Source: Desulfovibrio fairfieldensis | GTDB lineage: Bacteria; Desulfobacterota; Desulfovibrionia; Desulfovibrionales; Desulfovibrionaceae | DNA length: 64,000 nucleotides | NCBI RefSeq assembly: GCF_001553605.1 | Contig: NZ_CP014229.1 | Coordinates: forward strand, 1,640,501-1,704,500 | Reading direction: 5' to 3' | Position numbers and translations under genes: made by a program | In this document: positions 26,905-46,044 of the stretch, in pieces | How the letters are laid out: each line of letters begins with the position of its first letter | How positions within the stretch are numbered: the first letter of the stretch is position 1 | Notes under the pieces: model-generated | Told to the model about the DNA's origin: nothing | Seen by the model: only the letters and a program-made list of their open reading frames with translations | Databases searched by the model: none

Positions 26905-26916
26905 GGAGAGGGAGGC

Positions 26917-27792: not shown

Positions 27793-27802
27793 AGGGAAAA
27801 AG

Positions 27803-28348: not shown

Positions 28349-28354
28349 CAGGAA

Positions 28355-29518: not shown

Positions 29519-29643
29519 TGCCATTCCCTTCAAAAGATGGCTCTGTCCTTTCACCGGCAAACATTACTTCGGCATAAACATTGCTTAAAACCTGTTACCG
29601 TAAAAACATCGGCACCCTCCAACCAATGTCTATGGGATTATAT

Positions 29644-30153: not shown

Positions 30154-31267
30154 CTTTCTCCCTGTTTGCGAACCGCTTCTTGCGGGCAACGAGCTCAAAT
30201 ATGTCACCGATGCGGTGGCAAGCGGCTGGATTTCCTCCTCGGGTTCATACGTTTCGGCTTTTGAGCAGGCTTTTGCAGACTATTGTGGCGTACGGCACGG
30301 CATAGCCGTATGCAACGGCACGGTGGCCCTGCATCTTGCCCTGACGGCCTTGGGCGTGGGCAAAGGGGATGAGGTGATTATTCCAGATTTCACCATGATC
30401 TCCTCCGCCCTTGCCGTTTGCGGTACCGGTGCCGTGCCCGTATTCGTTGACGCCGACGCGGACACCTGGAACATTTCGCCCCGTGAAGTGGAAAAATTGA
30501 TCACGCCACGCACAAAAGCCATCATGGCCGTACATATTTTCGGCACCCCTTGCGACATGGCCGCGCTGGAGGAAATCGCCTCCCGTTACAACGTCGCTCT
30601 CATGGAAGACGCAGCGGAAGCCCACGGCGCGACTTTTCAGGGACGCAAGGCGGGCGCGCTCTCGCGTATCGCTGGCTTCAGTTTTTTTGCCAATAAAAAC
30701 ATCACCACTGGCGAAGGCGGTATGGTTGTCACCGATGACGATGCGCTTGCCAACGCCTGCCGCTACTACAAGAATGTCTGTTTTCCCTTGGACGCCCCGC
30801 GAACCTATCTGCATGAAGACCTGGGATTCAACTACCGCATGAGCAACCTGCACGCCGCTCTCGGCCTTGCTCAAACGGAAAAAGCGGAGGAATATTGGTG
30901 CCTGAGGGTAGAGCACGGCCATATGTACCGCGAGCGACTCGCCGCTATCCCCGGCGTCCGTCTTCAGCGCCAACAAGAAAGAGGCGAAAGCGTCTTCTGG
31001 ATGAACGGCATTGCCCTATCCCCCAATTATGGCAAGGGAAGAGATGAACTCATCGCCCATCTGCGGCAACAGGGAATCGACACACGACTTTTCTTCAACG
31101 GCATGCACCGCCAGCCCGCTTTGAAGCGATATGGCTGCGATTGTGCGAGGTCATACCCGGTTTCTGACTATCTGGCGGACAATGGTTTCTATCTTCCCAG
31201 CGGCAGCGGGCTAACAGAAGCGGATATTGATCGCGTCTGTGCGGCTATCCGCGCATTCCGCGCATAA
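30146..31267 (+). CDS. DegT/DnrJ/EryC1/StrS aminotransferase (perosamine-synthase-like)
   Basis: A 373-residue PLP enzyme that transfers an amino group from glutamate to a keto sugar nucleotide. The PLP lysine lies in FFANKNITTGEGGM; the EDAAEAHGA motif and IPDFTMISSALAV are typical. It most resembles RfbE/Per proteins that make 4-amino-4,6-dideoxy sugars, so it could act on the dTDP-4-keto sugar of RfbB or on the LegB product. ATG 30146 is preferred because GAGGAG lies eight bases upstream; ATG 30140 is too close to that site. Confidence 0.85.
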   Translation: MNDFLPVCEPLLAGNELKYVTDAVASGWISSSGSYVSAFEQAFADYCGVRHGIAVCNGTVALHLALTALGVGKGDEVIIPDFTMISSALAVCGTGAVPVFVDADADTWNISPREVEKLITPRTKAIMAVHIFGTPCDMAALEEIASRYNVALMEDAAEAHGATFQGRKAGALSRIAGFSFFANKNITTGEGGMVVTDDDALANACRYYKNVCFPLDAPRTYLHEDLGFNYRMSNLHAALGLAQTEKAEEYWCLRVEHGHMYRERLAAIPGVRLQRQQERGESVFWMNGIALSPNYGKGRDELIAHLRQQGIDTRLFFNGMHRQPALKRYGCDCARSYPVSDYLADNGFYLPSGSGLTEADIDRVCAAIRAFRA

Positions 31268-31283
31268 CGAGGGATGGTAAGCC

Positions 31284-32063
31284 ATGTTCGAGGATTATGC
31301 CAAGTACTATAATCTGCTGTACCAGGACAAAAATTACGCGGAAGAAACGGATTTTGTACTGGGGCTGTTGACCAATGATAATCGCGCGCTCCACAGCCTA
31401 CTTGACCTTGGCTGCGGCACAGGCCGCCATGCTCTGGAGCTGGGCAAGAAGGGACTTGCCGTGGAAGGGGTGGACATCTCGGAAACAATGCTTGACATGG
31501 GCCGCCAGATGCTTTCGGCCGTACGGCCCGCGCCTGCCGATCTTCCCGTGCTCCGTGAAGGCGACATCCGCGCTGTGCGACTAGGCAAAACCTTTGATGC
31601 CGTCATCTGTCTGTTTCACGTCATGAGTTACCAAAACAACGACGAAGACGCCCGCGCTCTCTTGAGCACCGCGTGGGAGCATCTGAAGCCGGGCGGCCTT
31701 TTTCTCTTTGATTTCTGGCACGCCCCCTGCGTGTTCAAGGTTCAACCGGAACACCGCATCAAAGTCATGGAAAATGAAGAAATACACATCCTCAGGGAAG
31801 CTACACCCACATGGAATAGTGCGGGCAATATCGTCACTGTGCACTATGACATGACCCAGACCCGCAAGGAGGACGGCAGCGTTTTTACCTTCAGCGAGGA
31901 CCACCCCATGCGCTGCTGGTATCCTGAGGAGCTGCGCGGCCTCGCCCGCACCGGCTTTGCCTTCCTGGCCGAAGACGGCTGGCTCAAAGAGCAAGCGCCT
32001 ATTGATGAGGATTGGGCTGCCTGGATGCTGTTGCGGAAAACACCACAAAAAAATCTACTATGA
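31284..32063 (+). CDS. Class I SAM-dependent methyltransferase
   Basis: A 259-residue methyltransferase with SAM motif I LLDLGCGTGRHA (39-50), an acidic loop GVDISETML and a later LKPGGLFLFDFW. It probably methylates a sugar, amino or hydroxyl group of the glycan. The stop overlaps the next start (ATGA), so translation is coupled. Confidence 0.82.
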   Translation: MFEDYAKYYNLLYQDKNYAEETDFVLGLLTNDNRALHSLLDLGCGTGRHALELGKKGLAVEGVDISETMLDMGRQMLSAVRPAPADLPVLREGDIRAVRLGKTFDAVICLFHVMSYQNNDEDARALLSTAWEHLKPGGLFLFDFWHAPCVFKVQPEHRIKVMENEEIHILREATPTWNSAGNIVTVHYDMTQTRKEDGSVFTFSEDHPMRCWYPEELRGLARTGFAFLAEDGWLKEQAPIDEDWAAWMLLRKTPQKNLL

Positions 32064-33277
32064 AAACACGCATTGCAGTCTATTCCCGAACCCGAAGCTT
32101 TTGGGGTGGCTCTTTCCAGTACGCCAAGGCCTTCGTCGAGGCTCTTGCCGGGCTTGATCCTAACTTCTTCGAAGTTCAGGTCTGGCATGAAGATGACGGA
32201 GACTGGAAGGAGTTATGTTCGCGCCTGAACTTTCCAGGGCATATTCTTGGCACATATAAGTTCCCCCCGCAATTTCTCCCTGTAGCAAAAAAAATTCTTG
32301 AGGCACTGAAGAACATCGGAGAAGACGACGATGCGCATCGAGGCTCTTTGTTGACCTCACTTCTCCCATTTTCCGAGGACGCAGCCATAGATGTTTACCG
32401 CCCTCATGTGGTGATCTCACCACAAATGGGTTGCCCCCGCTATGTGAAGGGTGCGCGGCATATTGGCGTCATTCACGATCTCATGCATAGATATGAATCG
32501 CGCTTTCCCGAAGTTGGAACGCCAACTGAAATCGCAATGAGAGAAAGCCTGTTTCAAGGTATGGTTTCACGCTGTGAGACCATCCTGGTGGATTCACACA
32601 CAGGACTTTGCCATGTACGCGAATGCTACCATCAAGTCCGCGAGGAACAGCTCAAGATCCTGCCCTTCGCGGCATTCGATGAAGTCACACAATGCGTGCC
32701 GCGCCGCCCCGGATGCTATCTGCCTGAAAAATTTTTCTTCTATCCCGCCCAGTTCTGGTTGCATAAAAACCATGTAGGACTGACTCGGGCAGTCGCCCGG
32801 CTCAAAATCGAGATTCCCGATCTTGTGGTAGTGGCGGCGGGCAACACAAAACAAAACGGCTTTGAACCCTTCATGGCGATTCTCAATAGCGAAGGTTTAG
32901 GACAGCATTTCATTTTGCCCGGCTATCTTCCGGTGGAAGAGCTGGCATGGTGCTATCATCATGCACGAGCACTTGTCATGCCAACCTTTTTCGGCCCCAC
33001 CAACATTCCGCCGCTTGAGGCCATGGCCCTAGGGTGCCCGTTGGCTGTTTCAAATATTTACGGCATGCCGGATCAATGCGGCAACGCGGCGCTCTATTTC
33101 AAACCGGATGACTCTGCCGACATGGCTCATGTTCTGCACCGACTCTGGACGGACGATGCCTTGTGTCTTGACCTCAAAAAAAAAGGATTAAGCCGCACAC
33201 ACTTATACAATATTTCAAATTTCAAAAAGCAGGTGCTGCGCATAGTGCAGGGAGTATGTTCTGCGCTATATTCATAA
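32060..33277 (+). CDS. GT-B (family 4-like) glycosyltransferase
   Basis: A 405-residue glycosyltransferase with two Rossmann-like halves. The N-terminus has the glycine-rich acceptor loop SFWGGSFQYAK. The C-terminal donor domain has LPGYLPVEELAWCYHHA and TFFGPTNIPPLEAMALGCP, in which the Glu of the E-x7-E region contacts the nucleotide sugar. It overlaps the preceding methyltransferase by four bases. A visible drop in GC content begins just after this gene. Confidence 0.85.
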   Translation: MKTRIAVYSRTRSFWGGSFQYAKAFVEALAGLDPNFFEVQVWHEDDGDWKELCSRLNFPGHILGTYKFPPQFLPVAKKILEALKNIGEDDDAHRGSLLTSLLPFSEDAAIDVYRPHVVISPQMGCPRYVKGARHIGVIHDLMHRYESRFPEVGTPTEIAMRESLFQGMVSRCETILVDSHTGLCHVRECYHQVREEQLKILPFAAFDEVTQCVPRRPGCYLPEKFFFYPAQFWLHKNHVGLTRAVARLKIEIPDLVVVAAGNTKQNGFEPFMAILNSEGLGQHFILPGYLPVEELAWCYHHARALVMPTFFGPTNIPPLEAMALGCPLAVSNIYGMPDQCGNAALYFKPDDSADMAHVLHRLWTDDALCLDLKKKGLSRTHLYNISNFKKQVLRIVQGVCSALYS

Positions 33278-33369
33278 ATTTATCACTAAGTTATGATACA
33301 TAATTAAAGATATTGGTAATATAAATATAATATTTTATATTATCTACACACTATGGAGGTGGAGATGCT

Positions 33370-34269
33370 ATGAGTAAAGAAGTACGCGATATATTAGAGA
33401 TACACCAAAAAAGCGGAAAAATTGTCTCTATGCTTGAACAACAGTATCGTGAACAGGCATATCGTAAATATCTTGAAGCGGGAAGAGTACCTTGGTCTGA
33501 AGGTTACAATGTTGCCCACGATATTTTCGTACGGAAAACGTTGAACTCACGCAACCTAATGCAAATTTTTGCTGACTCTTGCGCGTCCCTTCCCCCGAAC
33601 TATGGTCAAAATCTAGATGAGCGGATAGTAGAATGGCCTTGGATTCTGACGCATCTTCCCCCCAAAAGTTACCGCATTTTGGATGCCGGATCCGCCATGA
33701 ACCATGAACATGTACTATCCTACCCAGTATGGAAGAATAAAAAGCTGGATATTATGACCTTGGCTCCAGAAGCATTCTGCGCGTGGAAGCAGGGTATCTC
33801 CTATATTTTTCACGACTTACGGGATACGCCCTATCGCGACGAAGAATTTGATGTTATTATCTCGGTCTCTACCCTCGAACATGTCGGCATGGACAACCGG
33901 CAGTATGATGGCCATAGCTGTGAACATTCGTTGAATGATGTTTTTAGGGTATTGCATGAATTTCAAAGGATTCTTAAACCATGGGGTACACTACTTTTTA
34001 CTGTTCCTTTTGGAAGATACGAAGATCACGATAAATTTCAACAATTTGACTCTGACCTACTAGAACGGTGTGCTAAAGCTTTTGCACCAATCTCCAGACA
34101 GGAAACATTTTTTCTGTATACAAAAGAGGGATGGAAAAAGGCCGTACGCGAAGATTGCAGTGAAGCTCGATATGCTTTTCCCCATGTTGAGAATGGCAGA
34201 TTAGAGGATAACGCTGCGGCAGCCCGCTGTGTTGCCTGCTGCGAATGGCATAAAAAAGGATCATCCTAA
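33370..34269 (+). CDS. SAM-dependent methyltransferase, glycan locus
   Basis: A 299-residue protein whose middle part has the methyltransferase fold: YRILDAGSAMNHEH (about 101-114), DVIISVSTLEHVGMDN and LKPWGTLLFTVPFG. The N-terminal 90 residues are not recognised. The gene is preceded by a 90-base AT-rich stretch and a strong GGAGGTGGAG ribosome site, suggesting its own promoter. It probably modifies a sugar residue. Base composition is AT-richer than the rfb genes. Confidence 0.7.
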   Translation: MSKEVRDILEIHQKSGKIVSMLEQQYREQAYRKYLEAGRVPWSEGYNVAHDIFVRKTLNSRNLMQIFADSCASLPPNYGQNLDERIVEWPWILTHLPPKSYRILDAGSAMNHEHVLSYPVWKNKKLDIMTLAPEAFCAWKQGISYIFHDLRDTPYRDEEFDVIISVSTLEHVGMDNRQYDGHSCEHSLNDVFRVLHEFQRILKPWGTLLFTVPFGRYEDHDKFQQFDSDLLERCAKAFAPISRQETFFLYTKEGWKKAVREDCSEARYAFPHVENGRLEDNAAAARCVACCEWHKKGSS

Positions 34270-34459
34270 CATCGCCTTTGAATGGTCACGGAGCAGATTC
34301 TTGTGGCTAACGGCCGATTCTGTATTCATGGAAGGTATCACAGGATTAATCCCCACGACATTTTTACAAGACACTAGTTTATTAAACTTTTGCCTCGAAC
34401 TTCATCGTTATCCCCGATTGTGGGTGCAGACTTAACAACTTTTCCAGAAAGGTTTATTG

Positions 34460-35581
34460 ATGAGTGAAACAGAAAGACAAGAGGGCCATGACATCGGCAA
34501 GGATATGACGACATGGCTGCAAAATATGCCTGAGATAGAAAAGCCAAAGGCCAGCTTAAGGTTGCGCAGACTTTTAGGGAAAATCCTGCAAAAGGGAGAT
34601 ACGCCACTTGCCGTAAAATTAGGCGGTTTGGTGGCCGCGCACGGCTTGCAGGCGCCGGGCCTGCATTACCTCGTGGCCTTGGCCATGCTGAAAGATGGTC
34701 GCCCCTACTCTGCCCAAGCAGCGTTGGCGCTCTCAGAGAGCCAAGATTATCCTCAAGAATCAGCCGAACTGGCTTTGGAGATCAAAAACTATCTGACCAG
34801 ACTAAACTTACCACTGCAGGCATCATACGGGAATTTGACATGTACGAATCTCGCATATGCGAATCGCTATCTAGGGCAACGCTGTTTTATTCTTGGCAAC
34901 GCACCTTCCCTAAAAAACCATAACCTCAAATTATTATGCCATGATGTTGTCTTCTCAGTCTCCAATGGCTACCTCCATTCCGATTATGCGATATATAGAC
35001 CACACTTTCACTGCCTACCTACGATCCCTTATGATGAAATGCGCCTGACACACGATCATGCGGCCAAATGGCTGGCCGATATGGACGAGAAGATTTGGGA
35101 CGCCACCATAACTCTCAGCGTGGCGGACTTCACGCTTGCGCATGAACGGGGTATTTTTGCCAACAGGTCACACCTCTGCATGGATATGAGCCTACCGTGG
35201 CAAGCATTGCCACTAAACCCCTGTGATATTTGCGGACCAATGTCCGGTGTGCAAAGTGTGCCTATCATGGCACTGATGTTAGCCTTCTTTATGGGCTTTG
35301 AGAAAATATATCTTCTTGGAATTGATCACACTGATTTGATAACAAGACGATACAATTATTTTTATAAAAAAAGTATGAATACAGGGCTTGAGAGAGGTGT
35401 TGACACTAAAGGTAACATTACAGATGACAATTTTACTTTAATCAAGTGTATGTATAAACTTTTTTCACAGTATAGTTTCTTAAAAAATGAATCAATCAAA
35501 CGCAATACACATATATACAATACAAATCCACACAGTTTTCTCGATATATTTCCACTTGTCGAATATAATCATCTTTTTTAA
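34460..35581 (+). CDS. DUF115/MptE-like or GT42-like protein, candidate sugar transferase
   Basis: A 373-residue protein. The N-terminal 120 residues look like helical repeats. The remaining part has the Rossmann-type motif RCFILGNAPSLK (about 141-152) and later SGVQSVPIMAL ... GFEKIYLLGIDH. The same layout is found in DUF115 proteins, including flagellin glycosylation (Maf) factors, and in GT42 sialyltransferases (GNGPSLK ... SGV ... GYKEIYLSGID). In a nonulosonic-acid locus a transferase for that sugar is therefore a reasonable guess. ATG 34460 lies seven bases after AGAAAGG. Confidence 0.6.
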   Translation: MSETERQEGHDIGKDMTTWLQNMPEIEKPKASLRLRRLLGKILQKGDTPLAVKLGGLVAAHGLQAPGLHYLVALAMLKDGRPYSAQAALALSESQDYPQESAELALEIKNYLTRLNLPLQASYGNLTCTNLAYANRYLGQRCFILGNAPSLKNHNLKLLCHDVVFSVSNGYLHSDYAIYRPHFHCLPTIPYDEMRLTHDHAAKWLADMDEKIWDATITLSVADFTLAHERGIFANRSHLCMDMSLPWQALPLNPCDICGPMSGVQSVPIMALMLAFFMGFEKIYLLGIDHTDLITRRYNYFYKKSMNTGLERGVDTKGNITDDNFTLIKCMYKLFSQYSFLKNESIKRNTHIYNTNPHSFLDIFPLVEYNHLF

Positions 35582-35683
35582 TTAGTTAAAATATAAAATT
35601 ATTATTCAAATATGAAATAGAATATTACGATATTGATTCTATTTCAGGGTCGTCACCACAGTCATAAACTGACGGAGAAGATC

Positions 35684-36679
35684 ATGAAAAAAGTATTAGT
35701 TACCGGAGCTGATGGTTTTATCGGTTCTCATCTTGTGGAATTTTTGCTGAATAAGGGATATGATGTTCGCGCCTTTGTCCTGTATAACTCTTGGGGCAAA
35801 TGCGGCTGGCTGGACACGTTACCTGCTCATATACTCAACGATCTTGATATCTTCAGCGGCGATGTGCGTGATCCCAATGGGGTGCGCATGGCCCTTCGCG
35901 GCTGTGGTAGTGTACTGCACTTAGCAGCTCTAATCGGCATCCCTTACTCTTATAATTCTCCAGACTCCTATGTAGACACCAACATCACCGGTACACTCAA
36001 TATTCTGCAGGCTGCACGAGATCTGGAGATAGACCGTGTGGTTCACACCTCCACTAGTGAGGTCTATGGTACCGCGCAGCAGGTGCCTATTACTGAAGAC
36101 CACCCTTTACAGGCCCAATCCCCTTACGCTGCGACTAAAATTGCCGCCGACCAATTGGCTTTGTCGTTTTACCGTAGCTTCGGACTACCCATCAGCATAT
36201 TGCGCCCCTTCAATACCTACGGTCCGCGTCAGTCAGCTCGGGCAGTCATTCCATCCATTATCAACCAAATTTCTTCCGGCATGCGCACGTTGCATTTAGG
36301 GGCGCTGCATCCTACGCGCGATTTTAGTTTTGTGACCGATACCACTGCGGCTTTTGAGGCCGTCTTGCGCTGTCCAGAGGCCGTGGGACGAGTTCTGAAC
36401 GGAGGGAGTGGTTTCGAAATCAGCATACTCAATGTAGCCAACCTGATCGCGGCCCGCATGGGCGCGGAGATAAAAATTACCTGCGACACTGACCGTCTGC
36501 GCCCTAAGAAAAGTGAAATTGAGCGTTTATGTGCTGATAATAACCAACTGCGCACTATCACAAATTGGGAACCGGAGTTTTGCGGTCTTGAAGGATTTTC
36601 CCGAGGGATTGACAGAACAATTGATTGGTTTACGAGGGAAGGTAACATTGTGCAGCGTAAGAATAGGTATATCATATGA
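35684..36679 (+). CDS. legB: NAD-dependent sugar-nucleotide 4,6-dehydratase, LegB type
   Basis: A 331-residue extended SDR. VLVTGADGFIGSHL is the NAD motif, STSEVYG holds the catalytic acid, and SPYAATK holds the Tyr and Lys. The stretch FNTYGPRQSARAVIPSII with PTRDFSFV is characteristic of LegB, which in Campylobacter dehydrates GDP-N-acetylglucosamine in legionaminic acid synthesis. The next gene encodes the type of nucleotidyltransferase that makes that substrate, and the two overlap (ATGA), which supports the assignment. ATG 35684 has a GGAGAAG site. Confidence 0.82.
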   Translation: MKKVLVTGADGFIGSHLVEFLLNKGYDVRAFVLYNSWGKCGWLDTLPAHILNDLDIFSGDVRDPNGVRMALRGCGSVLHLAALIGIPYSYNSPDSYVDTNITGTLNILQAARDLEIDRVVHTSTSEVYGTAQQVPITEDHPLQAQSPYAATKIAADQLALSFYRSFGLPISILRPFNTYGPRQSARAVIPSIINQISSGMRTLHLGALHPTRDFSFVTDTTAAFEAVLRCPEAVGRVLNGGSGFEISILNVANLIAARMGAEIKITCDTDRLRPKKSEIERLCADNNQLRTITNWEPEFCGLEGFSRGIDRTIDWFTREGNIVQRKNRYII

Positions 36680-37731
36680 TCCGCAAAATATCCGATATAG
36701 ATTTACAACAATGCCTTTGTCCTGTAAGTTGTAGTCTTCTTGAAGCTATCAAACGTCTTGCAACACAACGTCATAAAATTGTCTTTGTGTTGGATGCTGA
36801 AGGACGCTTGCAAGGCACACTAGTAGATGGCGACGTACGGCGCGCTCTTTTACGAGGTGTGGCGCTAGAAGCCCCGATTTCTCAATCTATGTTCCGCCAG
36901 CCATGGGTAATCCGATCAAAAGATGAGCTAGGCGCGACTCAACTGGCCCTAGACAAAGCCCCCCGATACATTCCACTGATTAATGCTCAGGGCCATGTGC
37001 TGGCCGTGTATGACGTGTTCGCATCCGTACAGGTGAAGGCTGAACATCCTAATATAGTTGTTCTTATGGCCGGGGGCTTAGGAAGCCGTCTGGGTAGTCT
37101 CACCCGTGATTGCCCCAAACCAATGCTGAAACTTGGTGGCAAACCAATTTTGCAGCACATTCTTGAAAAATTCATACATCAGGGTTTTTGTTCCTTTTAT
37201 ATTTCAGTAAATTATAAACGAGAAGTTATTGAACATTACTTTGGCGATGGACAGCAGTGGGGAGTTTCAATCCGGTATTTACGTGAAACAAAGCGTTTGG
37301 GGACAGCAGGCGCTCTTTCATTAATACAGAAACAAGAACAATATCCCATCATTGTCATGAATGGGGATGTACTCGCAGATGTGGATTTCGACAGCATATT
37401 GGATTTTCATGTTTTGTCAGGGGCATCTATAACATCTGTCTTGGGACGTCACCAAGAACAAATCCCCTTTGGAGTAGCTACAGTATGCCAAAATAGAATC
37501 GTAGAGCTCAGAGAAAAACCGCTCATCACATATTATGTCAATGCGGGCATCTATGTTCTAGATCCCAAGCGGGTTCATGATGTCCCAGCAGACACCTTTT
37601 ACGACATGCCCGACCTCTTACAACGTTGTATTGAAGAGGGGGATTGCCCAGCAGCCTATCCATTGCACGAGCATTGGCAAGACATTGGTCGTCCGGAAGA
37701 ACTGGAACGGGCTATAGTGTATACAGGGTAG
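36676..37731 (+). CDS. CBS-domain nucleotidyltransferase (PtmE-like sugar-1-phosphate guanylyltransferase)
   Basis: A 351-residue fusion. Residues 1-120 form a pair of CBS domains (LQGTLVDGDVRRALL; VLAVYDVF). The rest is a sugar nucleotidyltransferase with GGLGSRL (133-139), CPKPML, the MNGDVLADVDF metal site and WQDIGRPEEL near the end. The same architecture occurs in PtmE, which makes GDP-glucosamine for legionaminic acid in Campylobacter. The CBS pair may sense adenine nucleotides. It overlaps legB by four bases. Confidence 0.8.
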   Translation: MIRKISDIDLQQCLCPVSCSLLEAIKRLATQRHKIVFVLDAEGRLQGTLVDGDVRRALLRGVALEAPISQSMFRQPWVIRSKDELGATQLALDKAPRYIPLINAQGHVLAVYDVFASVQVKAEHPNIVVLMAGGLGSRLGSLTRDCPKPMLKLGGKPILQHILEKFIHQGFCSFYISVNYKREVIEHYFGDGQQWGVSIRYLRETKRLGTAGALSLIQKQEQYPIIVMNGDVLADVDFDSILDFHVLSGASITSVLGRHQEQIPFGVATVCQNRIVELREKPLITYYVNAGIYVLDPKRVHDVPADTFYDMPDLLQRCIEEGDCPAAYPLHEHWQDIGRPEELERAIVYTG

Positions 37732-37736
37732 CGGTT

Positions 37737-38612
37737 ATGAGCACGAAAAAAGTGCTGGTGACGGGACATACGGGCTTTTTAGGACAAGCCCTCCGCATCA
37801 AGTTGGAGCGGCAAGGCCATATCGTAGTAGGTTGCTCCACCTCCACGGGTCAAAACCTTTTGCACGACGACTGGTATCACGATTTGCCTCATATAGGCTA
37901 TGATTACGTATTTCACACAGCAGCAGCAACGTTCATTCCCCAAGCATGGGAGCACCCTGAAAATTTTTTTGCTCTTAATGTGGAGGGGACGCGGCGCGTC
38001 TTAGATTTTTGTGTCGAACAAAAAGCTTCATTGTGTTATGTTAGCGCTTACGTCTATGGCACCCCGCAACGTCTTCCCATTAATGAGGGCCATCCCGTTT
38101 ACCCGGACAATCCCTATGGTCACAGTAAATTCCTCGGTGAACAACTTTGCCATTTTTATTGTACATACCGACACGTTCCATTGACCATTGTGCGTCCGTT
38201 CAATATTTATGGCCCTGGCCAGAGCGAACACTTTGTCATTCCGCATATTATCAAACAACTACAGGCCACAGGTGAGGTAGAACTCACTACAGCCCAAACT
38301 CGCCGGGACTTTATCTATGTGGACGACGTAGCACAGGCTCTTATAGCTTTGCTGGAGTCAAACGGAAAAGGCACCGTGTACAATCTTGGCAGCGGTGGAT
38401 CTCGTTCTATTCGGAGTGTCGTTGAACATATTGCCTCCCTGATGGGCTATTCACCTACTATCCGCATCATTCCCGGCCAGCGGACGCATGACATCATGGA
38501 TGCGGTGGCTGATATCTCCCGCTTTACGCGGGACTTCGGTCCCCTCAGTCTGACGAACTTCCATGAAGGGTTACGCCGTTGCGTGTCACACTTCTTACGT
38601 AACCTCCAATGA
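37737..38612 (+). CDS. NAD-dependent epimerase/dehydratase or reductase (SDR)
   Basis: A 291-residue extended SDR. VLVTGHTGFLGQAL is the cofactor motif; VSAYVYG and NPYGHSK hold the catalytic residues. RRDFIYVDDVAQAL and YNLGSG are typical of sugar-nucleotide epimerases and reductases. The exact reaction is not predictable; being next to legB it may reduce or epimerise the 4-keto product. ATG 37737 follows the preceding stop by five bases. Confidence 0.8.
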   Translation: MSTKKVLVTGHTGFLGQALRIKLERQGHIVVGCSTSTGQNLLHDDWYHDLPHIGYDYVFHTAAATFIPQAWEHPENFFALNVEGTRRVLDFCVEQKASLCYVSAYVYGTPQRLPINEGHPVYPDNPYGHSKFLGEQLCHFYCTYRHVPLTIVRPFNIYGPGQSEHFVIPHIIKQLQATGEVELTTAQTRRDFIYVDDVAQALIALLESNGKGTVYNLGSGGSRSIRSVVEHIASLMGYSPTIRIIPGQRTHDIMDAVADISRFTRDFGPLSLTNFHEGLRRCVSHFLRNLQ

Positions 38613-38696
38613 CATTTTTGCCACAAGCAGCCCAAGTCGTTGCCGAATTTTTGTGTACTTCTGCTACGACAGCAGGCCTGAGTATAGGGATAAAAT

Positions 38697-39767
38697 ATGA
38701 CGAATTACGTGAACAAAGGGAATTATAGTCTTGAGACTCCCGCCCGAGAGGCTGAGTTTGAACGGCGACGCGCCCATGGCTGGGAACCCGCCTACAGGGC
38801 CTATCGGCAAGAGTGGTTGGCTCGGGTGGAAAAACGCCGTTTCGGAGAATGGCCTCTGTTGGTCGATATGGAACTTTCTTCCATTTGTAATCTTCACTGC
38901 CCTATGTGCTACACTAACACCAGAACCTTTAAAAACACTGTGGATCGTCAATTTATGCCGGTGCAGCTTTTCCGCGATATTGTGGATGAAATTGCAGCGC
39001 ATGTCCCTGCCTTGCGCCTTTCGTTCCGCGGTGAATCCACTTTACATCCACAATTTCTGGATTGCCTCGCCTACGCCAAACAGAAAGGTATAGGCGAAGT
39101 TTCTTTCTTAACCAATGCCAGTCGATTAGATAAAACCTTTATCCATGAAATTATCATGGCTGGAGCTGACTGGATTACCGTCTCACTTGACGGTCTGCAC
39201 GAAATTTACGAGAATATCCGCAAACCACTGCGCTTTGAAGAGACTGTGGAAAAACTCAAATTTTTACGGGCATCGCGTGAACGTTTGTGTAAAGTGCGTC
39301 CGGTGGTCAAGGTACAGAGTGTATGGCCCGCCATCGCAAAAGATCCTTTGGCTTATTATAACTATTTAAGCCCTCTTGTGGATTTTGTGGCCTTCAACCC
39401 TCTCGTAGACTATCTGGAAGTAGATAGCTTGGATTCGATAATCTATGTACCGGACTTTTATTGTCCCATGCTGCACCAACGTCTTGTCATCACTTCCGAT
39501 GGTATGGCCTTACCTTGCTCCAACGACAGCAAGGAAGGTCTGTCGTTAGGTAGCGTGAAAAGCAGGAGCGTATATGATATCTGGAATAGTGAAACTCTCC
39601 GCGCCCTGCGCGAGGCACATGCACGTTGTGACGGCTTCAAACAATATTCCCCATGCCGCCACTGCTATTTGCCTCGCGCTACGACAGATAGCTTTGTTCC
39701 TCTAGCCGATGGGCGTCGTATCATTGTGAAAAATTATCTAAATAGGGTTCAATCTATTGGAAAATAG
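38697..39767 (+). CDS. Radical SAM protein with SPASM-like C-terminal cluster domain
   Basis: A 356-residue iron-sulfur enzyme. CNLHCPMCY gives the radical SAM cluster (Cys64, 68, 71). LRLSFRGESTLHP is the glycine-rich SAM motif. The C-terminal part has Cys256 (FYCPML), Cys274 (ALPCSND), Cys311, and Cys320/Cys323 (SPCRHCYLP), which fit an auxiliary cluster of the SPASM type. Such enzymes modify peptides, or sugars and aminoglycosides. It lies inside a sugar-nucleotide pathway, five to eight bases from the next gene, so it probably acts on a sugar: deoxygenation, epimerisation or dehydrogenation. Function is unproven. Confidence 0.8.
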   Translation: MTNYVNKGNYSLETPAREAEFERRRAHGWEPAYRAYRQEWLARVEKRRFGEWPLLVDMELSSICNLHCPMCYTNTRTFKNTVDRQFMPVQLFRDIVDEIAAHVPALRLSFRGESTLHPQFLDCLAYAKQKGIGEVSFLTNASRLDKTFIHEIIMAGADWITVSLDGLHEIYENIRKPLRFEETVEKLKFLRASRERLCKVRPVVKVQSVWPAIAKDPLAYYNYLSPLVDFVAFNPLVDYLEVDSLDSIIYVPDFYCPMLHQRLVITSDGMALPCSNDSKEGLSLGSVKSRSVYDIWNSETLRALREAHARCDGFKQYSPCRHCYLPRATTDSFVPLADGRRIIVKNYLNRVQSIGK

Positions 39768-39775
39768 GAGGAACT

Positions 39776-40786
39776 ATGATTTTTAACCAAGCTTCATGCT
39801 ATGTGGTGGCAGAAATAGGCGGTAATTTTTCAGATGTGGCTACAGGAATAAAACTAGTGGATGCGGCGGCCGATGCCGGTGCAGACGCTATTAAATTACA
39901 AACATACCGCAGTAAAACTATTACATCGCGTTACGCCATGTTCGACATGGAAAATACGAACTACCTTTCGCAGGAAGCTTTTTTCAGGCGGCATGAACTC
40001 TCAGAAGAAGCTCATAAGAGACTTTTCTCCCATGCTTCTCAACGCGGGCTAGGCTTTTTCTCCACGCCTTCACATCCAGAAGATGTAGAAATGCTCGAAC
40101 GTCTTGGTGTGCCATGCTATAAAATAGGAGCGGATGACGCGAACAATTTACCATTCTTACGTTATGTTGCCAAAACAGGCAAGCCCGTCATTTTCTCAAC
40201 AGGCATGTGCACAATACAGGAGGTGCGGAAAGCCGTAGAAACAATTATATCTGAAGGTAATAGACAAATTATATTACTGCACACCATTTCTGGCTACCCC
40301 ACGCATCCACATGATGTAAATCTTAGGGCTATGCTATCCTTAAAACAGGAATTTCCGCAATTTCCAGTGGGCTTTTCTGACCATACTCTGGGGATCTGGG
40401 CATCTTTGGCAGCAGCCACTCTCGGTGCGGCACTGATTGAGCGCCATTTCACCTTGGATCGTCACTCCGATGGGCCTGATCATATGCTTTCGTCCGAGCC
40501 GCAGGAACTTGCCGTTCTCGTGCGCCAAATCCGTCTCATGGAATGTATGATGGGCAGCGACGTCAAAGGTCCCTATGGCCCGGAAGTAAAAAATCGTCGT
40601 AACAACCGCAAGAGTCTGGTGGCCATGCGCGCTATCGCCGCAGGTACTGTCCTTACCACTGAAGATATCTGGCCCAAGCGTCCGGGCACAGGCATTGAAC
40701 CTAAATTTTTGGATATGTTCCTCGGACGCGCTGCCGCGCGCGACATTCCAGAGGATACTATTCTCACATGGAACGACATTCGATGA
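39776..40786 (+). CDS. N-acetylneuraminate-synthase-family protein (SpsE/NeuB/LegI type)
   Basis: A 336-residue TIM-barrel synthase that condenses phosphoenolpyruvate with a six-carbon sugar to give a nine-carbon nonulosonic acid, or a shorter homologue. YVVAEIGGNFSD opens the barrel; AIKLQTYRS, FFSTPSHPEDV, YKIGADD and GFSDHTLG line the active site, and IERHFTLDRHSDGPDH binds metal and PEP. The C-terminal 60 residues are an antifreeze-like SAF domain (RRNNRKSLVAMRAI). It starts the triad SpsE-SpsF-SpsG, the same order as in the Bacillus spore-coat polysaccharide operon. GGAGGAA precedes the ATG. Confidence 0.9.
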   Translation: MIFNQASCYVVAEIGGNFSDVATGIKLVDAAADAGADAIKLQTYRSKTITSRYAMFDMENTNYLSQEAFFRRHELSEEAHKRLFSHASQRGLGFFSTPSHPEDVEMLERLGVPCYKIGADDANNLPFLRYVAKTGKPVIFSTGMCTIQEVRKAVETIISEGNRQIILLHTISGYPTHPHDVNLRAMLSLKQEFPQFPVGFSDHTLGIWASLAAATLGAALIERHFTLDRHSDGPDHMLSSEPQELAVLVRQIRLMECMMGSDVKGPYGPEVKNRRNNRKSLVAMRAIAAGTVLTTEDIWPKRPGTGIEPKFLDMFLGRAAARDIPEDTILTWNDIR

Positions 40787-41472
40787 ACGAAATGGCCGTT
40801 CATAATATAGGACTGATAGTGCAGGCGCGTATGGAGTCGACCCGCCTGCCGGGTAAAATTTTAATGCCCATAGGGAAATACCCATTACTTGAGCATATCT
40901 GTCGTCGTATGGCTGATGTGCCGGGAAAACTCGTTATCGCCACTTCCACCCGCCCGGCGAACGACGCAGTGGAAGCTTTCTGCCAAGAACGAAGCATAGC
41001 TTACTTTCGTGGTCCGGAAGAAAACGTATTAGAACGTTATGTATTATGTGCATGCCATTACGGCTTTCAACATGTGGTACGTCTGACTGGCGATAATCCT
41101 TTTCCTGACGCGTATGCTTTACAGCGGCTTGTACGTCTACACTTAACACAACAGGCTGATTTCTCAACTTCTTTCGGGGTATTGCCCATTGGCGTCGGCT
41201 GCGAGGTTTTTCGCCGAGAAATGCTGGAATACACTTTGCACAACGCAAATAAGCCTCACCACTTTGAGCATGTGGATGAATATTTACTGGAGCATAAAAG
41301 TGAAATTCGCAATGCCGCTTTGCCACCGGATGAGTCAACCTTTGCGCCTGAGGTGCGCCTAACCGTGGACTATGTTGAAGACTTAGTGCGGGCACGCTGC
41401 ATCGTGGCTCACGCTGGCGAGATGGTGAACACTAAAGAGGCCATACGACTATGCAGAAGCGGGCAGTGCTGA
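40783..41472 (+). CDS. SpsF-type cytidylyltransferase-like protein
   Basis: A 229-residue nucleotidyltransferase of the SpsF/CMP-sugar family. GLIVQARMESTRLPGKIL is its signature; LTGDNPFPD holds the metal site. It probably activates the product of the preceding synthase as a CMP sugar. ATG 40783 overlaps the synthase stop (ATGA); ATG 40768 in the same frame is possible. It overlaps the next gene by 22 bases. Confidence 0.82.
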   Translation: MNEMAVHNIGLIVQARMESTRLPGKILMPIGKYPLLEHICRRMADVPGKLVIATSTRPANDAVEAFCQERSIAYFRGPEENVLERYVLCACHYGFQHVVRLTGDNPFPDAYALQRLVRLHLTQQADFSTSFGVLPIGVGCEVFRREMLEYTLHNANKPHHFEHVDEYLLEHKSEIRNAALPPDESTFAPEVRLTVDYVEDLVRARCIVAHAGEMVNTKEAIRLCRSGQC

Positions 41473-42461
41473 TTTGTGTTGAAGGTTCACATAGTAAAGG
41501 GTTAGGACATGTGTACCGCTCCCTACGCTTGGCGCGAGCTTTGCGTACAGCTGGCATCTCATCTTTCTTTGTCGCCAATGACGATATAACCTCCTGCAAT
41601 ATCTTACGAATGGAGGGCTTTGAAGTCTTCATAGCCCCAGTAGGAGAGAAGGACGGACAATGGGAAAGAGACTTGCTGGCACAGCGCCAAATCAATCTGT
41701 GGTGGAATGACCGGCTTGATACTACTCTGGCCCATGCCCAGGCATTACCGCCGGAACTGCCGCGCATACATATGGATGATGCCGGTGCTGGCTTGTTAGG
41801 GGCAACCGCTGTGGTACTAACCATGCCCTGCCACTTTACAGTTGCACGGAAAGCTCCTTGCCCCGCTTTTGTTGGACTTGAATACATGTTGCTCGAAGAA
41901 AATCTCGGCCTGAGTAAGTATGTTCGCAAAGAAGATAAACAATGGCGTATTTTAGTCAGTATGGGTGGGAGCGACACATGGGGTGGCAGTATTTTTGTCC
42001 TGCGCTGCCTCGCTCATGCTCGTTGGCAGGATAGGCTGTCCATAACGCTGATAACCGGCGCCGGTTACTCCCATGAAAACCAGTTGCGTCCACTGCTAGC
42101 CGCCCATCCAGCGTGGCGGCGTAAGGCCTGCGTCCCTGACATGGCGACAGAATTTTTACAAAGTGACCTGCTTATCTGTACAGGTGGTATGACCCCTTTT
42201 GAAGCCGCCGCCACAGGTCTGCCCGCGTGCATCGTGGCGTCTGAGCCCCATGAAGAGGACAATGCTGCTTTTTTGGAACAACAGGGGGCTGGCTTTGTAG
42301 GCGGCAGACGTAAGGGGAATTATTTTGAAGGTAACGTAGTTTTGGTAATGGAAAGATCACTGTCTTCACTAGAAAACATAAGTAAAAAAGCTGGAACATT
42401 ATGTGACGGAATGGGATGCTCACGTTGCATAAACATCATCAAAGGTATACTTCATGCCTAA
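41451..42461 (+). CDS. PseG/SpsG-like UDP-sugar hydrolase
   Basis: A 336-residue GT-B-fold protein. SKGLGHVYRSL contains the catalytic GxGHxxR motif (His20, Arg23) of PseG, which removes the nucleotide from the bacillosamine-type sugar before the synthase acts. LVSMGGSDTWGG and ICTGGMTPFEAAATGLP build the nucleotide site. In pseudaminic acid synthesis the hydrolase precedes the synthase; here the two are separated only by the SpsF gene, so a related nonulosonic or other acid sugar is expected. Confidence 0.82.
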   Translation: MQKRAVLICVEGSHSKGLGHVYRSLRLARALRTAGISSFFVANDDITSCNILRMEGFEVFIAPVGEKDGQWERDLLAQRQINLWWNDRLDTTLAHAQALPPELPRIHMDDAGAGLLGATAVVLTMPCHFTVARKAPCPAFVGLEYMLLEENLGLSKYVRKEDKQWRILVSMGGSDTWGGSIFVLRCLAHARWQDRLSITLITGAGYSHENQLRPLLAAHPAWRRKACVPDMATEFLQSDLLICTGGMTPFEAAATGLPACIVASEPHEEDNAAFLEQQGAGFVGGRRKGNYFEGNVVLVMERSLSSLENISKKAGTLCDGMGCSRCINIIKGILHA

Positions 42462-43170
42462 AGTTTCCAGTACAGTAGTCATCCACCAACCGGATTTTAT
42501 TCCATATCTCGGTTTTTTTCATCGTTTATTGCAGACCGATATCTGGATAGTACTCGATCATATACAATTGAACAAAGCCGGGTGGGTACATCGGGACAAA
42601 CTCAAAACCCCCAACGGTGTGAAGTGGATAAGCATTCCTCTGAAGAAATGCCATCTCTCCACGCGAATTATGGATGCCCTTATAGCAGAAGGGCCGTGGC
42701 GTGAAAAACATCTGAACCAGTGGCACAGTTTTTATCATACTACTCCATATTGGCAAAATATACTGCCATATCTGGAGGACATTTACGCCAATTCTTCTTC
42801 AACGCTCATGGGATTTACCATGTACTCGATTGAGGTCATGCTTAAACTGTTTGGAATTCATGTCCCGCGTATTATCTACAGTAGTGAATTACAACCTAAA
42901 TATACAAGCAATGCTTTGGTGGCTGAATTAACGCGTAAGGTGGACAGCACTCGTTACCTCTCAGGTACCGGAGCCCGGAACTATTTTGAATCAACACCTT
43001 TTATCGAAGCGGGCGTGGAGGTTTTCTGGCAACATTTTACCCATCCGATTTATTCACAACCTTATGGAGCATTTGAGCCGAACCTCTCCGCATTTGATAT
43101 ACTTTTCAACTGTGGTATTGCCAAAAGTCGTATTTTGCTGCAGATGGCCTTAGAGGAGACCTCAATTTAG
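42454..43170 (+). CDS. WbqC-family protein
   Basis: A 238-residue protein whose opening VVIHQPDFIPYLGFFHRL, with VLDHIQLNKAGWVHRDKL, marks the WbqC family. These proteins are found in O-antigen and glycan clusters and are of uncertain biochemistry; some may be glycosyltransferases or amidating or acylating enzymes. It overlaps the PseG-like gene by eight bases and ends the tightly packed run that began with the synthase. Confidence 0.78.
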   Translation: MPKVSSTVVIHQPDFIPYLGFFHRLLQTDIWIVLDHIQLNKAGWVHRDKLKTPNGVKWISIPLKKCHLSTRIMDALIAEGPWREKHLNQWHSFYHTTPYWQNILPYLEDIYANSSSTLMGFTMYSIEVMLKLFGIHVPRIIYSSELQPKYTSNALVAELTRKVDSTRYLSGTGARNYFESTPFIEAGVEVFWQHFTHPIYSQPYGAFEPNLSAFDILFNCGIAKSRILLQMALEETSI

Positions 43171-43839
43171 TTTTTACACGAAAACTAATATAAATATGTT
43201 TATTGGTATATGGGCCATAAAGATACGTAAATTATGTGACATACTCTCTCAGCGATAAAAACAATTATACTGTTGTATAACAATTTATCAATCATATTGT
43301 GTAGATTTTTTAATAAACATCTAGACTGACTATCTGCCATCATTATATTTTTCGCCATTAAAATGGTGCACTGCATACTAAAATAAATGGATAACTCATT
43401 TCTATTAATAAAAAATTATTCCTTAATGAAATATGCTATTTATTTTACATAAGTATTTGATGACATTCGCAAATGGTATAGCATTTTTAAATATGCGGAT
43501 TTCGAGATGCTTGGTATATTGGTAAGAAATGTGTTATTTCAAGAAATACCATGATAGCAATAATAGGAAATTATACAAAGTGATTCCTTTGTTCAAATAC
43601 TTAAGTATAGTCATACTTTTGAATACGGCACACCGATCAAAACCTAGAAGGCTATTATTGGCAAGTTTCCATAGACCTATTACTGGATTAGATAGAGAAG
43701 CCAAAACTTGAGGACAGACAATATCTTCATAGGAGATGGTGCAGTCAAGGAGCGAACAGTGGTCACATGATCCTGCTAATGCCGCAGCTGCGGGCATATC
43801 CGCCAACGTATTAAAAATGAGCTGCTGGGGGAAAGTTAT
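43171..43839. other. AT-rich intergenic region with a gene remnant
   Basis: About 670 bases, very AT-rich. The first 370 bases hold nothing recognised. The last part contains the remains of an acyltransferase gene (see 43551-43828) and the ribosome site GGGGGAAAG of the following deacetylase gene. Confidence 0.6.
43551..43828 (+). pseudogene. Remnant of a hexapeptide-repeat sugar acetyltransferase (NeuD-like)
   Basis: Reading from 43714, one frame gives TDNIFIGDGAVKERTVVT and then a stop. Shifting frame at about 43763 gives HDPANAAAAGISANVLKM. Joined, they match the C-terminal end of left-handed beta-helix acetyltransferases (IGDGAVVGAG-VVTHDIPANAVAAGNPAKVLK pattern). A short MIAIIG start with an immediate stop at 43551 may be the old N-terminus. 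The gene would normally be over 600 bases, so most of the middle is lost. An N- or O-acetyltransferase is just what the surrounding pathway lacks. Identification rests on pattern recognition. Confidence 0.5.
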
Positions 43840-44472
43840 ATGAATATATTGGCTATCGGAGCCCATATTGACGATGTAGAACTGGGGTGCGGAGGCACAC
43901 TCATTAAGCATGCCCGCCACGGCGAGGTAGTCCATATCATGATACTCTGCGATTCTGCATATTCTGCCCCAGACGGCACAGTCATCCGAAGAGCAGATAC
44001 CGCAAGAGCAGAAGCCGAACAATCGGCTGCCATCATTGGAGCCACCCTGACAATACTTCCCAACAAAAACTTTTATATAGATTGTGATGAGAAAATGGTA
44101 AGCGCTATTTTGGCCTATATACAAAAAAATAATATTGACACTATCTATGCTCACTGGCCGCATGATACGCATCTAGATCATGTCAATGCAGCTAAAGCAT
44201 CTATGATGGCTGGCCGCCATGTCCCTCGCTTTCTTATGTATCAATCTAACTGGTACGTATCGACTGAAATATTTAGAAATAATTTTTTTGTAGATATCAC
44301 AAATACTTTTGATACTAAAATGCAAACTATTAAATGTTTTAAAACAGAATTACATCGTGTACATAATGCATGGATTGATTATTTTACAAATAAATGTATT
44401 AATGACGGCATGTTAATTGGTGTAAACTATGCTGAATCTTTTGAAATATTACGCTATCTTATGCCAGATTAA
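43840..44472 (+). CDS. PIG-L family deacetylase (LmbE-like)
   Basis: A 210-residue zinc-dependent deacetylase-like protein. The metal motif is AHIDDVELGCGG (His9, Asp11/12, Glu14), with Ile in place of the usual Pro of AHPDD. The second motif HWPHDTHLDHVNA supplies the distal His ligands. Known members remove the N-acetyl group from GlcNAc linked to inositol, malate or other aglycones. Here it probably works on an acetamido sugar of the glycan. The last third is noticeably AT-rich. Confidence 0.85.
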   Translation: MNILAIGAHIDDVELGCGGTLIKHARHGEVVHIMILCDSAYSAPDGTVIRRADTARAEAEQSAAIIGATLTILPNKNFYIDCDEKMVSAILAYIQKNNIDTIYAHWPHDTHLDHVNAAKASMMAGRHVPRFLMYQSNWYVSTEIFRNNFFVDITNTFDTKMQTIKCFKTELHRVHNAWIDYFTNKCINDGMLIGVNYAESFEILRYLMPD

Positions 44473-45168
44473 AGGGAATATAATGTCTATATAGAATAGT
44501 TTTTCAAAAATCCATAATTTATTAAATTATGGGACATCGCATCAAAAATAATCTCAGATATCGAAGTTTGTATGCATTATTGATGTTAAACAGACAAACT
44601 TCTGCAAGTTTACGTGCAGATTTTGTGAAACTAAAATAAAAAGCAATCATAAGACTACAAGAAGCTATGGCTATATACACATGCAACAAAATATCTGATG
44701 AAGTAATACCATACAAAATGTATTATATACTTTATAAGTTAGCCAGCATTACCCACAGCTGGCTGAGATAAGCAGATGCAAAAATATAATCTACTCATGC
44801 GCTTCACCACAAATGGTAGCCAGTTACACATGAAGATATACACCTCGTTGTTGATAATGATATAGATTCCATTAAATTTTCTTTCCAAGCTACAAGCTGA
44901 AAGACTTATCATAAAATATATGTATCGACTTTTATGACCAACTGTTTGAGAAAATAGACAAACTAAAAAATTCGCGGCAGTATAAAGATACCCTTCATTC
45001 AAATTTCTACAATAATCATTTTGCGGAATCTAAATGAAGGCTGTGTACTTCTCACGAAAAAAGTAAAAACCGAGATTTCCGCCTACTCAGGGAAATGCGC
45101 GCTAAAGAAATACGGATCTAATCGAAACCTAACACATCACGAATGCATCAACTTAAGCTTAACCTTTC
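44473..45168. other. AT-rich region between convergent genes, no gene recognised
   Basis: About 700 AT-rich bases between the deacetylase and a minus-strand glycosyltransferase. Short open frames exist on both strands but none has a recognisable domain or ribosome site. A 9-bp AT-rich hairpin lies at 44512-44532. It looks like decayed sequence at the right border of the AT-rich island. Confidence 0.5.
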
Positions 45169-45927
45169 TCACTCGATAAACCCGTGCTCCTGCCCAGAAC
45201 TTTCGGCCGTTCCCATCAGGGCCGCAGTAAATTCTTCAATCCGCGGTTCCACCTTGGTTTTCAAAATCCGCAGGCGCTCCCTGAGTAGCTGTTTCCGTGA
45301 ATTTTCACTACTGCTTATGCCGGTCAGTTCAAAAAAACTGACGCAGACCGGCAGACGAGCCAGATTGTCAAGGCGGATATGTTCCGCGCAAAAGGCGAAA
45401 TCGCCAGCTATTTTATATATTCTGTCAAAAGGATGACTTTTGAGAAAGTCCGTCCGGATGAATGTTGCGGGAAACGGAAGCCCCATATCACTGATAAAAA
45501 GGGAAAAGACCTCATGTCGGCTTCTGTTCAGGATGCCGCTTACATTGCCGTTGGCACCCATCAGCAGCACGCCATAGGCGAAAATAATGTCGTCATCAAG
45601 TTTTCTCAAAAAATGAACGCATTGCGCAAGCACATTGTCATTCATCAGAAAATCGTCAGCGCCGAGAAAAAGTGCCCAGTCTCCGCTGGCCCTGGCCACA
45701 GCTTTATTCCAGGCGTCATAAATGCCCCGGTCCGGCTCGGAAACCCAAGAAACAGAAGCACGATGACTTTCAAGGATTTCCAGCGTGCCATCTGTTGATC
45801 CGCCGTCCTGCACAATGATTTCCCAATGGGGGTAACACTGCCTTTCCACTGAGCGCAAAGTACGTTCAAGCTGAGCGGCCGCATTGTAGGTTGCCATAAG
45901 GATGGAAATCCGAATATGTTGCTTCAT
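45169..45927 (-). CDS. Family 2 glycosyltransferase
   Basis: A 252-residue GT-A enzyme: ISILMATYNAAAQLERTL, VQDGGSTDGTLEIL (nucleotide binding, about 39-52) and ALFLGADDFL (metal site, about 85-94). WVSEPDRGIYDAWNKA is typical of WcaA/WcaE-like transferases that extend capsule or O-antigen. It is on the opposite strand to the main glycan run and returns to the GC-rich composition of the flanks. Confidence 0.88.
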   Translation of the reverse strand: MKQHIRISILMATYNAAAQLERTLRSVERQCYPHWEIIVQDGGSTDGTLEILESHRASVSWVSEPDRGIYDAWNKAVARASGDWALFLGADDFLMNDNVLAQCVHFLRKLDDDIIFAYGVLLMGANGNVSGILNRSRHEVFSLFISDMGLPFPATFIRTDFLKSHPFDRIYKIAGDFAFCAEHIRLDNLARLPVCVSFFELTGISSSENSRKQLLRERLRILKTKVEPRIEEFTAALMGTAESSGQEHGFIE

Positions 45928-46044
45928 AAGAACCCGCTGTTACGGCACTAAAAATAAAGAACATAGTTTCATTGTGCTATCTTCATTTATCCTATGTCAT
46001 GGAAGCATAAATGGCAATGGAGCAGACAGCCCGGAGACAGCAGC

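Follow-up and report, generated by a model that had tools for sequence, protein, structure and literature searches.

A stretch of 64,000 nucleotides of the Desulfovibrio fairfieldensis chromosome (hereafter the window; G000:C1:1640501-1704500 of a single-contig genome of 3.70 Mb) contains a gene for a radical S-adenosylmethionine (SAM) enzyme that lies within a cassette predicted to make a nonulosonic acid. Eight intact genes, all on the + strand, are tightly packed between positions 35633 and 43170 and encode LegB, a PtmE-like protein, a short-chain dehydrogenase/reductase (SDR) termed SDR2, the radical SAM/SPASM enzyme, a NeuB-type synthase with a SAF domain, SpsF, SpsG and a WbqC-family protein. 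Two further companions of the cassette, a PIG-L gene that starts 669 bases past WbqC and an MptE-like gene upstream of LegB, extend the gene list of the initial annotation of this DNA.

34457..35581, + strand: MptE-like/DUF115-type protein, weak match (PF01973, E 3e-4, below cut-off)
35633..36679, + strand: LegB, nucleoside diphosphate (NDP)-N-acetylglucosamine (GlcNAc) 4,6-dehydratase family (TIGR04180, 487.4 bits, above the cut-off of 475)
36676..37731, + strand: PtmE-like sugar-1-phosphate nucleotidyltransferase (PF00483, E 5.5e-36)
37737..38612, + strand: SDR2, extended SDR (PF01370, E 8.5e-46)
38697..39767, + strand: radical SAM/twitch (SPASM) enzyme (PF04055, E 4.3e-16; PF13186 SPASM, E 3.9e-13)
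39776..40786, + strand: NeuB/SpsE-type nonulosonate synthase with SAF domain (PF03102, E 1.7e-83; PF08666, E 5.5e-12)
40768..41472, + strand: SpsF-like CMP-sugar synthetase (PF02348, CTP_transf_3, E 4.7e-23)
41451..42461, + strand: SpsG/PseG-like nucleotide-sugar hydrolase (TIGR03590, 93.4 bits, below the cut-off of 153.55; motif GLGHVYR)
42454..43170, + strand: WbqC-family protein (PF08889, E 1e-61; predicted fold like BshC and class I aminoacyl-tRNA synthetases)
43840..44472, + strand: PIG-L/LmbE N-deacetylase (PF02585, E 8.1e-18; nearest named family BshB1, TIGR04001, 90.1 bits, below the cut-off of 182.5)

The initial annotation had described a run of genes from an SDR to a WbqC protein at 37737..43170, and each of these genes is there, intact, on the + strand and with matches to the family named. 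The genes were called mostly overlapping, which is borne out by overlaps of 8 to 22 bases among NeuB, SpsF, SpsG and WbqC (SpsF extends 19 bases onto NeuB); LegB and PtmE overlap by 4 bases, and spacers of 84 bases to SDR2 and 8 bases to NeuB flank the radical SAM gene. The GxGHxxR motif of a PseG-like hydrolase can be read in the SpsG protein as GLGHVYR. LegB and a CBS-nucleotidyltransferase had been placed upstream; LegB and the nucleotidyltransferase stand, but the CBS portion is a weak N-terminal match below its cut-off (E 8.8e-4, 20 vs 24 bits). The best NCBIfam rows for the PtmE-like protein are guanylyl-, uridylyl- and other sugar-1-phosphate nucleotidyltransferases, every one of them below cut-off. 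The solved protein nearest to SDR2 is a GDP-6-deoxy-D-mannose reductase (6x3b, E 9.9e-26), and SDR2 is likely a 4-keto-sugar reductase. The operon contains both a NeuB-type synthase and a CMP-sugar synthetase, the combination by which a nonulosonic acid cluster is recognized. The synthase reaches neither the equivalog cut-off of NeuB (342 against 399.65 bits) nor that of PseI (280.5 against 340.25 bits), scores that do not single out a substrate. For the MptE-like protein, a possible transferase for the acid sugar, no solved relative was found at E ≤ 0.1 in a sequence search of the structure database.

Conservation of the cassette and versions without the radical enzyme

Searches with the radical SAM protein gave 1096 protein-database matches at E ≤ 1e-3, and an alignment of 22 sequences led to 142 confirmed loci in species genomes. 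Locus counts refer to the best 80 of these 142; the gene profiles were built from those same loci, the score thresholds were set by the authors, and in distant loci the PIG-L, SpsG and NeuB scores lie close to the thresholds. A NeuB gene is nearby in 66 of the 80 loci and is fused to the radical SAM gene in two more. The remaining genes are present as follows: SpsF and SpsG in 60 loci each, WbqC in 49, PIG-L in 46, LegB and PtmE in 41 each, SDR2 in 37 (within 300 bases of the radical SAM gene in 35 of these) and an MptE-like relative in 30, with all nine core genes together in 29. The initial annotation had proposed looking in other genomes for the neighbourhood of radical SAM, SpsE, SpsF, SpsG and WbqC, and this gene set does recur. 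The 80 loci come from 77 bacterial and three archaeal records in 18 named phyla, and those with NeuB span 15 named phyla. NeuB is missing from 12 loci, several of them on short or cut contigs, and three loci (L079, 21 kb; L078, 14 kb; L019, 13 kb) have no other cassette gene over threshold. Given the 66 loci with NeuB and the fusions, the radical SAM gene counts as a conserved part of a nonulosonic-acid cassette, beyond what coincidence would give.

The association can also be viewed from the side of NeuB. Within the family of G297 (L047, Rhizobium phaseoli), 199 genomes include three with the radical SAM gene (E ≤ 1e-60) and 33 with NeuB (E ≤ 1e-40); the three genomes with NeuB at E < 1e-100 are exactly those with the radical SAM gene, the two genes lying 97 to 583 bases apart, and the next NeuB stands at 7.6e-72. 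Within the family of G298 (L011, Sporofaciens, Lachnospiraceae), NeuB is found in 76 of 200 genomes and the radical SAM gene in two; three genomes have NeuB at E < 1e-100, one of which has the radical SAM gene. The other two of these three, G580 and G628, have LegB, PtmE, SDR2, NeuB, PIG-L, SpsF, SpsG and WbqC together (in slightly altered order in L102) and no radical SAM match at E ≤ 1e-60 genome-wide; a GtrII-like protein is encoded downstream in both loci. Since these cassettes keep all else, the radical SAM enzyme is, judged by gene content, an optional tailoring step, and the backbone route would do without it. The same cassettes weigh against any reading in which the radical SAM enzyme makes an obligatory intermediate, and they make it likely that the ketone formed by LegB is used by SDR2. 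The radical step is apparently mobile.

Cassettes with the radical SAM gene fall into types that differ in their accessory genes. WbqC or PIG-L is present in 50 of the 80 loci and one or both of two other families in 22 (F11, DUF4910/DUF2172 with a solved relative, 3k9t, named 'putative peptidase', and F12, a GNAT protein); the two kinds occur together solely in L023, and nine loci, some of them cut by contig ends, have neither. LegB never accompanies F11 or F12 (0 of 41 LegB loci). Three loci with F11 (L007, L017, L018) also encode an AMP-binding ligase, to which L007 adds a protein like an aminoglycoside N-acetyltransferase and a sub-cut-off match to a carrier protein. In L068, L071 and L073 a DegT aminotransferase takes the place of SDR2; downstream of it, L068 encodes an acetyltransferase and L071 a formyltransferase. 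A family with a median length of 566 residues, F17, is present in 13 of the 80 loci, 12 of which have F11 or F12; its representative (L030:11868-13595) matches no Pfam family and no PDB sequence. In a quick tree of 81 proteins (75 of the family and six outgroup rows, with L017, L018 and some loci with unclustered open reading frames (ORFs) absent), the gene-content types, assigned by the authors, are clustered, requiring 17 changes against a mean of 40.9 after shuffling, with none of 200 shuffles as low; L023 was labelled Ax despite its F11 and F12. The three DegT loci group together as a clade with support 97, and the window protein sits on a long branch with weak placement (SH-aLRT 87).

Two side observations bear on the range of such cassettes. 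Loci with F11 or F12, including L023, L030 and L033, form a parallel cassette of radical SAM, usually NeuB, a DUF4910/DUF2172 peptidase-like protein and GNAT, with an iron-containing alcohol dehydrogenase in nine of the 22 and LegB over threshold in none. Six genomes from the family to which the window belongs (G025, G067, G090, G120, G153, G271) have loci of about 4 kb (L085-L089, L091, L093-L098) in which more distant radical SAM genes stand side by side as tandem pairs, and most of these short loci contain NeuB-like or partial WbqC-like matches. The link between radical SAM enzymes and nonulosonates seems to extend beyond the present radical SAM family.

Cysteines, fold and fusions of the radical SAM enzyme

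The radical SAM enzyme retains the three core cysteines, C64, C68 and C71 (CxxxCxxC), in all 72 aligned relatives, and four auxiliary cysteines, C256, C274, C320 and C323, are equally invariant (72/72). The latter align with those of BtrN, with a predicted four-cysteine auxiliary [4Fe-4S] cluster, and their spacing matches BtrN to within one residue at an identity of 16% in the structural alignment. BtrN is the best profile match and the best match of the predicted fold; the peptide-modifying enzymes SkfB and SuiB trail it by 1.7 and 2.7 Z units in fold lists re-ranked from the Foldseek top 1000, where the absence of a family excludes nothing. No eighth cysteine is invariant among the 72 sequences, the best other column reaching 46. 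No named maturase family reaches its cut-off among the best 25 of 38 NCBIfam rows, the highest scores being 92.3 bits against 380 and 73.1 against 170.

Fusion proteins tie the enzyme to particular sugar enzymes. The tally covers 237 proteins from the best 120 of the 1096 matches and the best 120 of 475 matches of a second search, restricted to those that match radical SAM and are longer than 395 residues; the query of the second search is itself a fusion, which favours the recovery of fusions, and the counts are lower bounds. At least 23 proteins join the radical SAM domain to an SDR (22 SDR2-radical SAM and one labelled LegB-SDR2-radical SAM) and at least 16 to NeuB, with two SDR2 and two NeuB fusions being partial. 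At least one protein (P0150) joins it to SpsG, which residues 1-328 match at 400 bits. A single polypeptide of L017 holds NeuB, SAF, radical SAM and SPASM domains, as does P0123, whose contig is as long as that of L018; an ORF of the same length as the L017 fusion occupies the corresponding place in L018. Because the fusion partners are SDR2, SpsG and NeuB, the architecture places the enzyme provisionally between hexose reduction and condensation with phosphoenolpyruvate (PEP), or nearby. By eye alone, the N-terminal stretch of another protein, P0092, resembles an acyl-carrier protein.

Proposed reaction and alternatives

The initial annotation had suggested an unusual acid sugar modified by radical deoxygenation, epimerisation or dehydrogenation, a proposal that finds support in part. 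Dehydrogenation agrees with the BtrN-like profile, fold and four-cysteine cluster, and epimerisation of the cysteine-dependent type does not agree with the missing eighth cysteine. The reading given most weight, a tentative one put somewhat short of an even chance, is that the radical SAM enzyme is a BtrN-like sugar dehydrogenase that oxidises one hydroxyl of a 6-deoxy-amino-sugar about the time of PEP condensation. Built upon the observed genes, their conservation and fusions, the cluster cysteines, the predicted fold and the radical SAM-free cassettes, this route proposes every reaction, its site, its order and the product. The PtmE-like enzyme would make NDP-GlcNAc, presumably with GDP as the nucleotide, LegB would convert it to a 4-keto-6-deoxy sugar, and SDR2 would reduce C4. 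The radical SAM enzyme would then take a hydrogen atom from a carbinol carbon, with the auxiliary four-cysteine [4Fe-4S] cluster accepting the second electron to give a ketone; C3 as the site of oxidation is a guess modelled on what DesII does to TDP-quinovose. That ketone would either persist or be reduced again, with inversion, by SDR2, the product of the neighbouring gene. Loss of the nucleotide would fall to SpsG, addition of PEP to NeuB and formation of the CMP-sugar to SpsF, while PIG-L and WbqC would replace the N-acetyl group by a different acyl or an aminoacyl group. A bolder extension, regarded as quite unlikely, is that nonulosonic acids with a backbone reshaped by a BtrN-like radical SAM dehydrogenase are a widespread class not yet described, and that a BshB/BshC-like PIG-L/WbqC pair puts an amino acid in the place of the N-acetyl group, so that cell surfaces of bacteria and archaea would carry an aminoacyl, perhaps cysteinyl, nonulosonate.

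Radical chemistry could also remove a substituent, as in the deoxygenation or deamination by DesII or AprD4. Abstraction of hydrogen beside C4 would expel the C4 substituent and leave a 3-keto-4-deoxy sugar for reduction by the SDR, the final acid having no substituent at C7. This is unlikely: the acetyltransferase of L068 and the formyltransferase of L071 that follow DegT suggest that the amine is acylated and kept, DesII itself dehydrogenates rather than dehydrates a sugar with a 4-hydroxyl, and a four-cysteine auxiliary cluster suits an electron acceptor better. The enzyme might instead modify the amine substituent and leave the ring alone, with PIG-L or F11 freeing the amine and WbqC, GNAT or an AMP-ligase/carrier system acylating it. 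The mutual avoidance of PIG-L/WbqC and F11/F12, as though two versions of one module, fits this account, as do the ligase in L017 and L018, the ligase, sub-cut-off carrier protein and acetyltransferase-like protein in L007, the N-terminus of P0092 and the BshC- and synthetase-like predicted fold of WbqC. But the commonest fusions join the enzyme to SDR2 and NeuB, which build the backbone, PIG-L and WbqC occur together in cassettes that have no radical SAM gene, and nine radical SAM loci, some cut by contig ends, have neither module; modification of the amine is also held to be improbable.

The case for a radical epimerase, which would invert a single hexose carbon (C2 or C5) and perhaps replace a 2-epimerase, draws on the gene content of the window genome, where a genome search found no Epimerase_2 (PF02350) and no GlcNAc_2-epim protein, hence no known 2-epimerase. 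PseG, which SpsG resembles, is not known to epimerise. Yet no further invariant cysteine is available as a hydrogen donor, and the candidate role as a 2-epimerase substitute was rejected because the presence of the radical SAM gene does not follow the absence of known 2-epimerases: Epimerase_2 is encoded in three of seven radical SAM genomes searched (G298, G299, G301) and also in G549, and the radical SAM-free G580 and G628 are without Epimerase_2, though with GlcNAc_2-epim proteins on other contigs. A cysteine-type radical epimerase was likewise set aside, and epimerisation is considered a rather poor prospect. Either C2 would be inverted by SpsG or another enzyme, or the acid keeps a different configuration. 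That the enzyme matures a peptide and stands beside glycan genes by chance is hardly credible. Many SPASM enzymes do modify peptides, as stated in the relevant part of PMC9012708, and SkfB and SuiB are not far behind in the fold ranking; against this stand the NeuB neighbours in 15 named phyla, the fusions to three sugar enzymes, the failure of any maturase family to reach its cut-off among the NCBIfam rows considered and the mere 84 and 8 bases left free around the gene, and the candidate was rejected.

Origin, significance and relation to known systems

The cassette lies in a low-G+C island of glycan genes.

28001..46000, no strand: low-G+C glycan island (G+C 0.40-0.56 in 2-kb steps vs 0.55-0.70 outside)

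Among 297 genomes of the window's class, 10 match the radical SAM protein at E ≤ 1e-60, the window at 2e-172 and the other nine at 7e-66 to 3e-74, and no other sampled genome of the window's genus has the gene at that level. Low G+C together with this absence from congeneric genomes makes horizontal gain of the island and its radical SAM gene likely. The same island contains a second sugar-nucleotide set at window positions 25711-28348 and 29581-31267, with RmlB- and RmlC-family genes followed by a Pfam-less ORF and a DegT aminotransferase; an RmlA-like ORF between RmlB and RmlC was recognized by eye. The DegT protein (30140-31267) scores 319.8 bits on the LegC model, whose cut-off is 420, and, beside RmlB and RmlC genes, more likely serves another sugar, though it could supply the cassette. 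Elsewhere in the window, an intact ORF at 9954-11051, flanked by a very large ORF and one that resembles a transporter, looks by eye alone like an ISAs1-type transposase. Outside the window, the genome encodes a second NeuB-type synthase (G000:C1:2764210-2764923, L002), next to a gene that is MoeA-like by eye.

Hosts, phages and immune systems recognise sialic-acid-like sugars, whose gene clusters serve to predict surface chemistry from genomes. In the open-licence literature no paper joins 'radical SAM' with 'nonulosonic acid' or 'legionaminic acid', and of two papers from a wider search that mention 'radical SAM', one on Leptospirillum and one on a Campylobacter capsule region, the latter concerns, in the part consulted, a different gene set. 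The surface sugar that such a cassette would make has probably not yet been described. If the proposed reading is true, annotations of these NeuB-bearing clusters from 15 named phyla as legionaminic-acid or spore-coat-sugar loci are wrong or incomplete. Since cassettes with and without the radical SAM gene both exist in nature, the question is open to direct test. The PIG-L/WbqC pair also offers a testable role for WbqC, on whose function none of the open-licence papers that contain the word reports, judged by title or start of abstract.

The GDP-legionaminic acid route of Campylobacter jejuni consists of PtmE, LegB, LegC, LegH, LegG, LegI and LegF. The cassette resembles it in a LegB above the family cut-off, a PtmE-like nucleotidyltransferase and a NeuB-type synthase; unlike it, the eight genes lack LegC, LegH and LegG in family searches, and the textbook legionaminic route was rejected on this ground. 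For LegG, a hydrolysing 2-epimerase, the PF02350 search was negative across the whole genome. In Bacillus subtilis, legionaminic acid is described as requiring SpsC, SpsD, SpsE, SpsG and SpsM, and its transfer as requiring SpsF (PMC7439481). The cassette shares homologues of SpsE, SpsF and SpsG with that six-enzyme pathway (SpsM, C, D, G, E, F), for which the relevant part of the same source names no separate 2-epimerase. It differs in that SDR2 occupies the place of the aminotransferase and acetyltransferase SpsC and SpsD, both missing, LegB and the PtmE-like enzyme suggest GDP instead of UDP, and the radical SAM enzyme, WbqC and PIG-L are additional. The initial annotation was right to regard an iron-sulfur radical enzyme as foreign to both textbook pathways; it would add a type of reaction found in neither.

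In bacillithiol synthesis the deacetylase BshB and BshC provide a parallel to PIG-L and WbqC; of the 45 loci that contain the latter two, 27 have them within 300 bases of each other. As there, a deacetylase is found beside a protein of BshC-like predicted fold; unlike BshB and BshC, PIG-L falls well below the BshB1 cut-off, WbqC is less than half as long as BshC, and the window genome has no BshC. Sequence kinship between WbqC and BshC was rejected (hhalign probability of 0.2% against 31 BshC proteins, no better than 16 unrelated controls), and the pair recalls BshB and BshC by modelled structure alone, a likeness that hints at N-acyl exchange.

Among radical SAM enzymes, the deaminase/dehydratase pair DesII and AprD4 act on amino- or 6-deoxy-sugars, and AprD4 works with the reductase AprD3, according to the part of PMC5461906 concerned, much as the window enzyme teams with SDR2; unlike their lyase chemistry, loss of a substituent has no sign in the present data. 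The nearest parallel is BtrN, the butirosin radical SAM dehydrogenase, with which the window enzyme shares a radical SAM core and a four-cysteine twitch domain. The window enzyme exceeds BtrN in length by about 100 residues, has a conserved N-terminal region and is tied to a nonulosonic-acid route, whereas BtrN belongs to that of an aminocyclitol.

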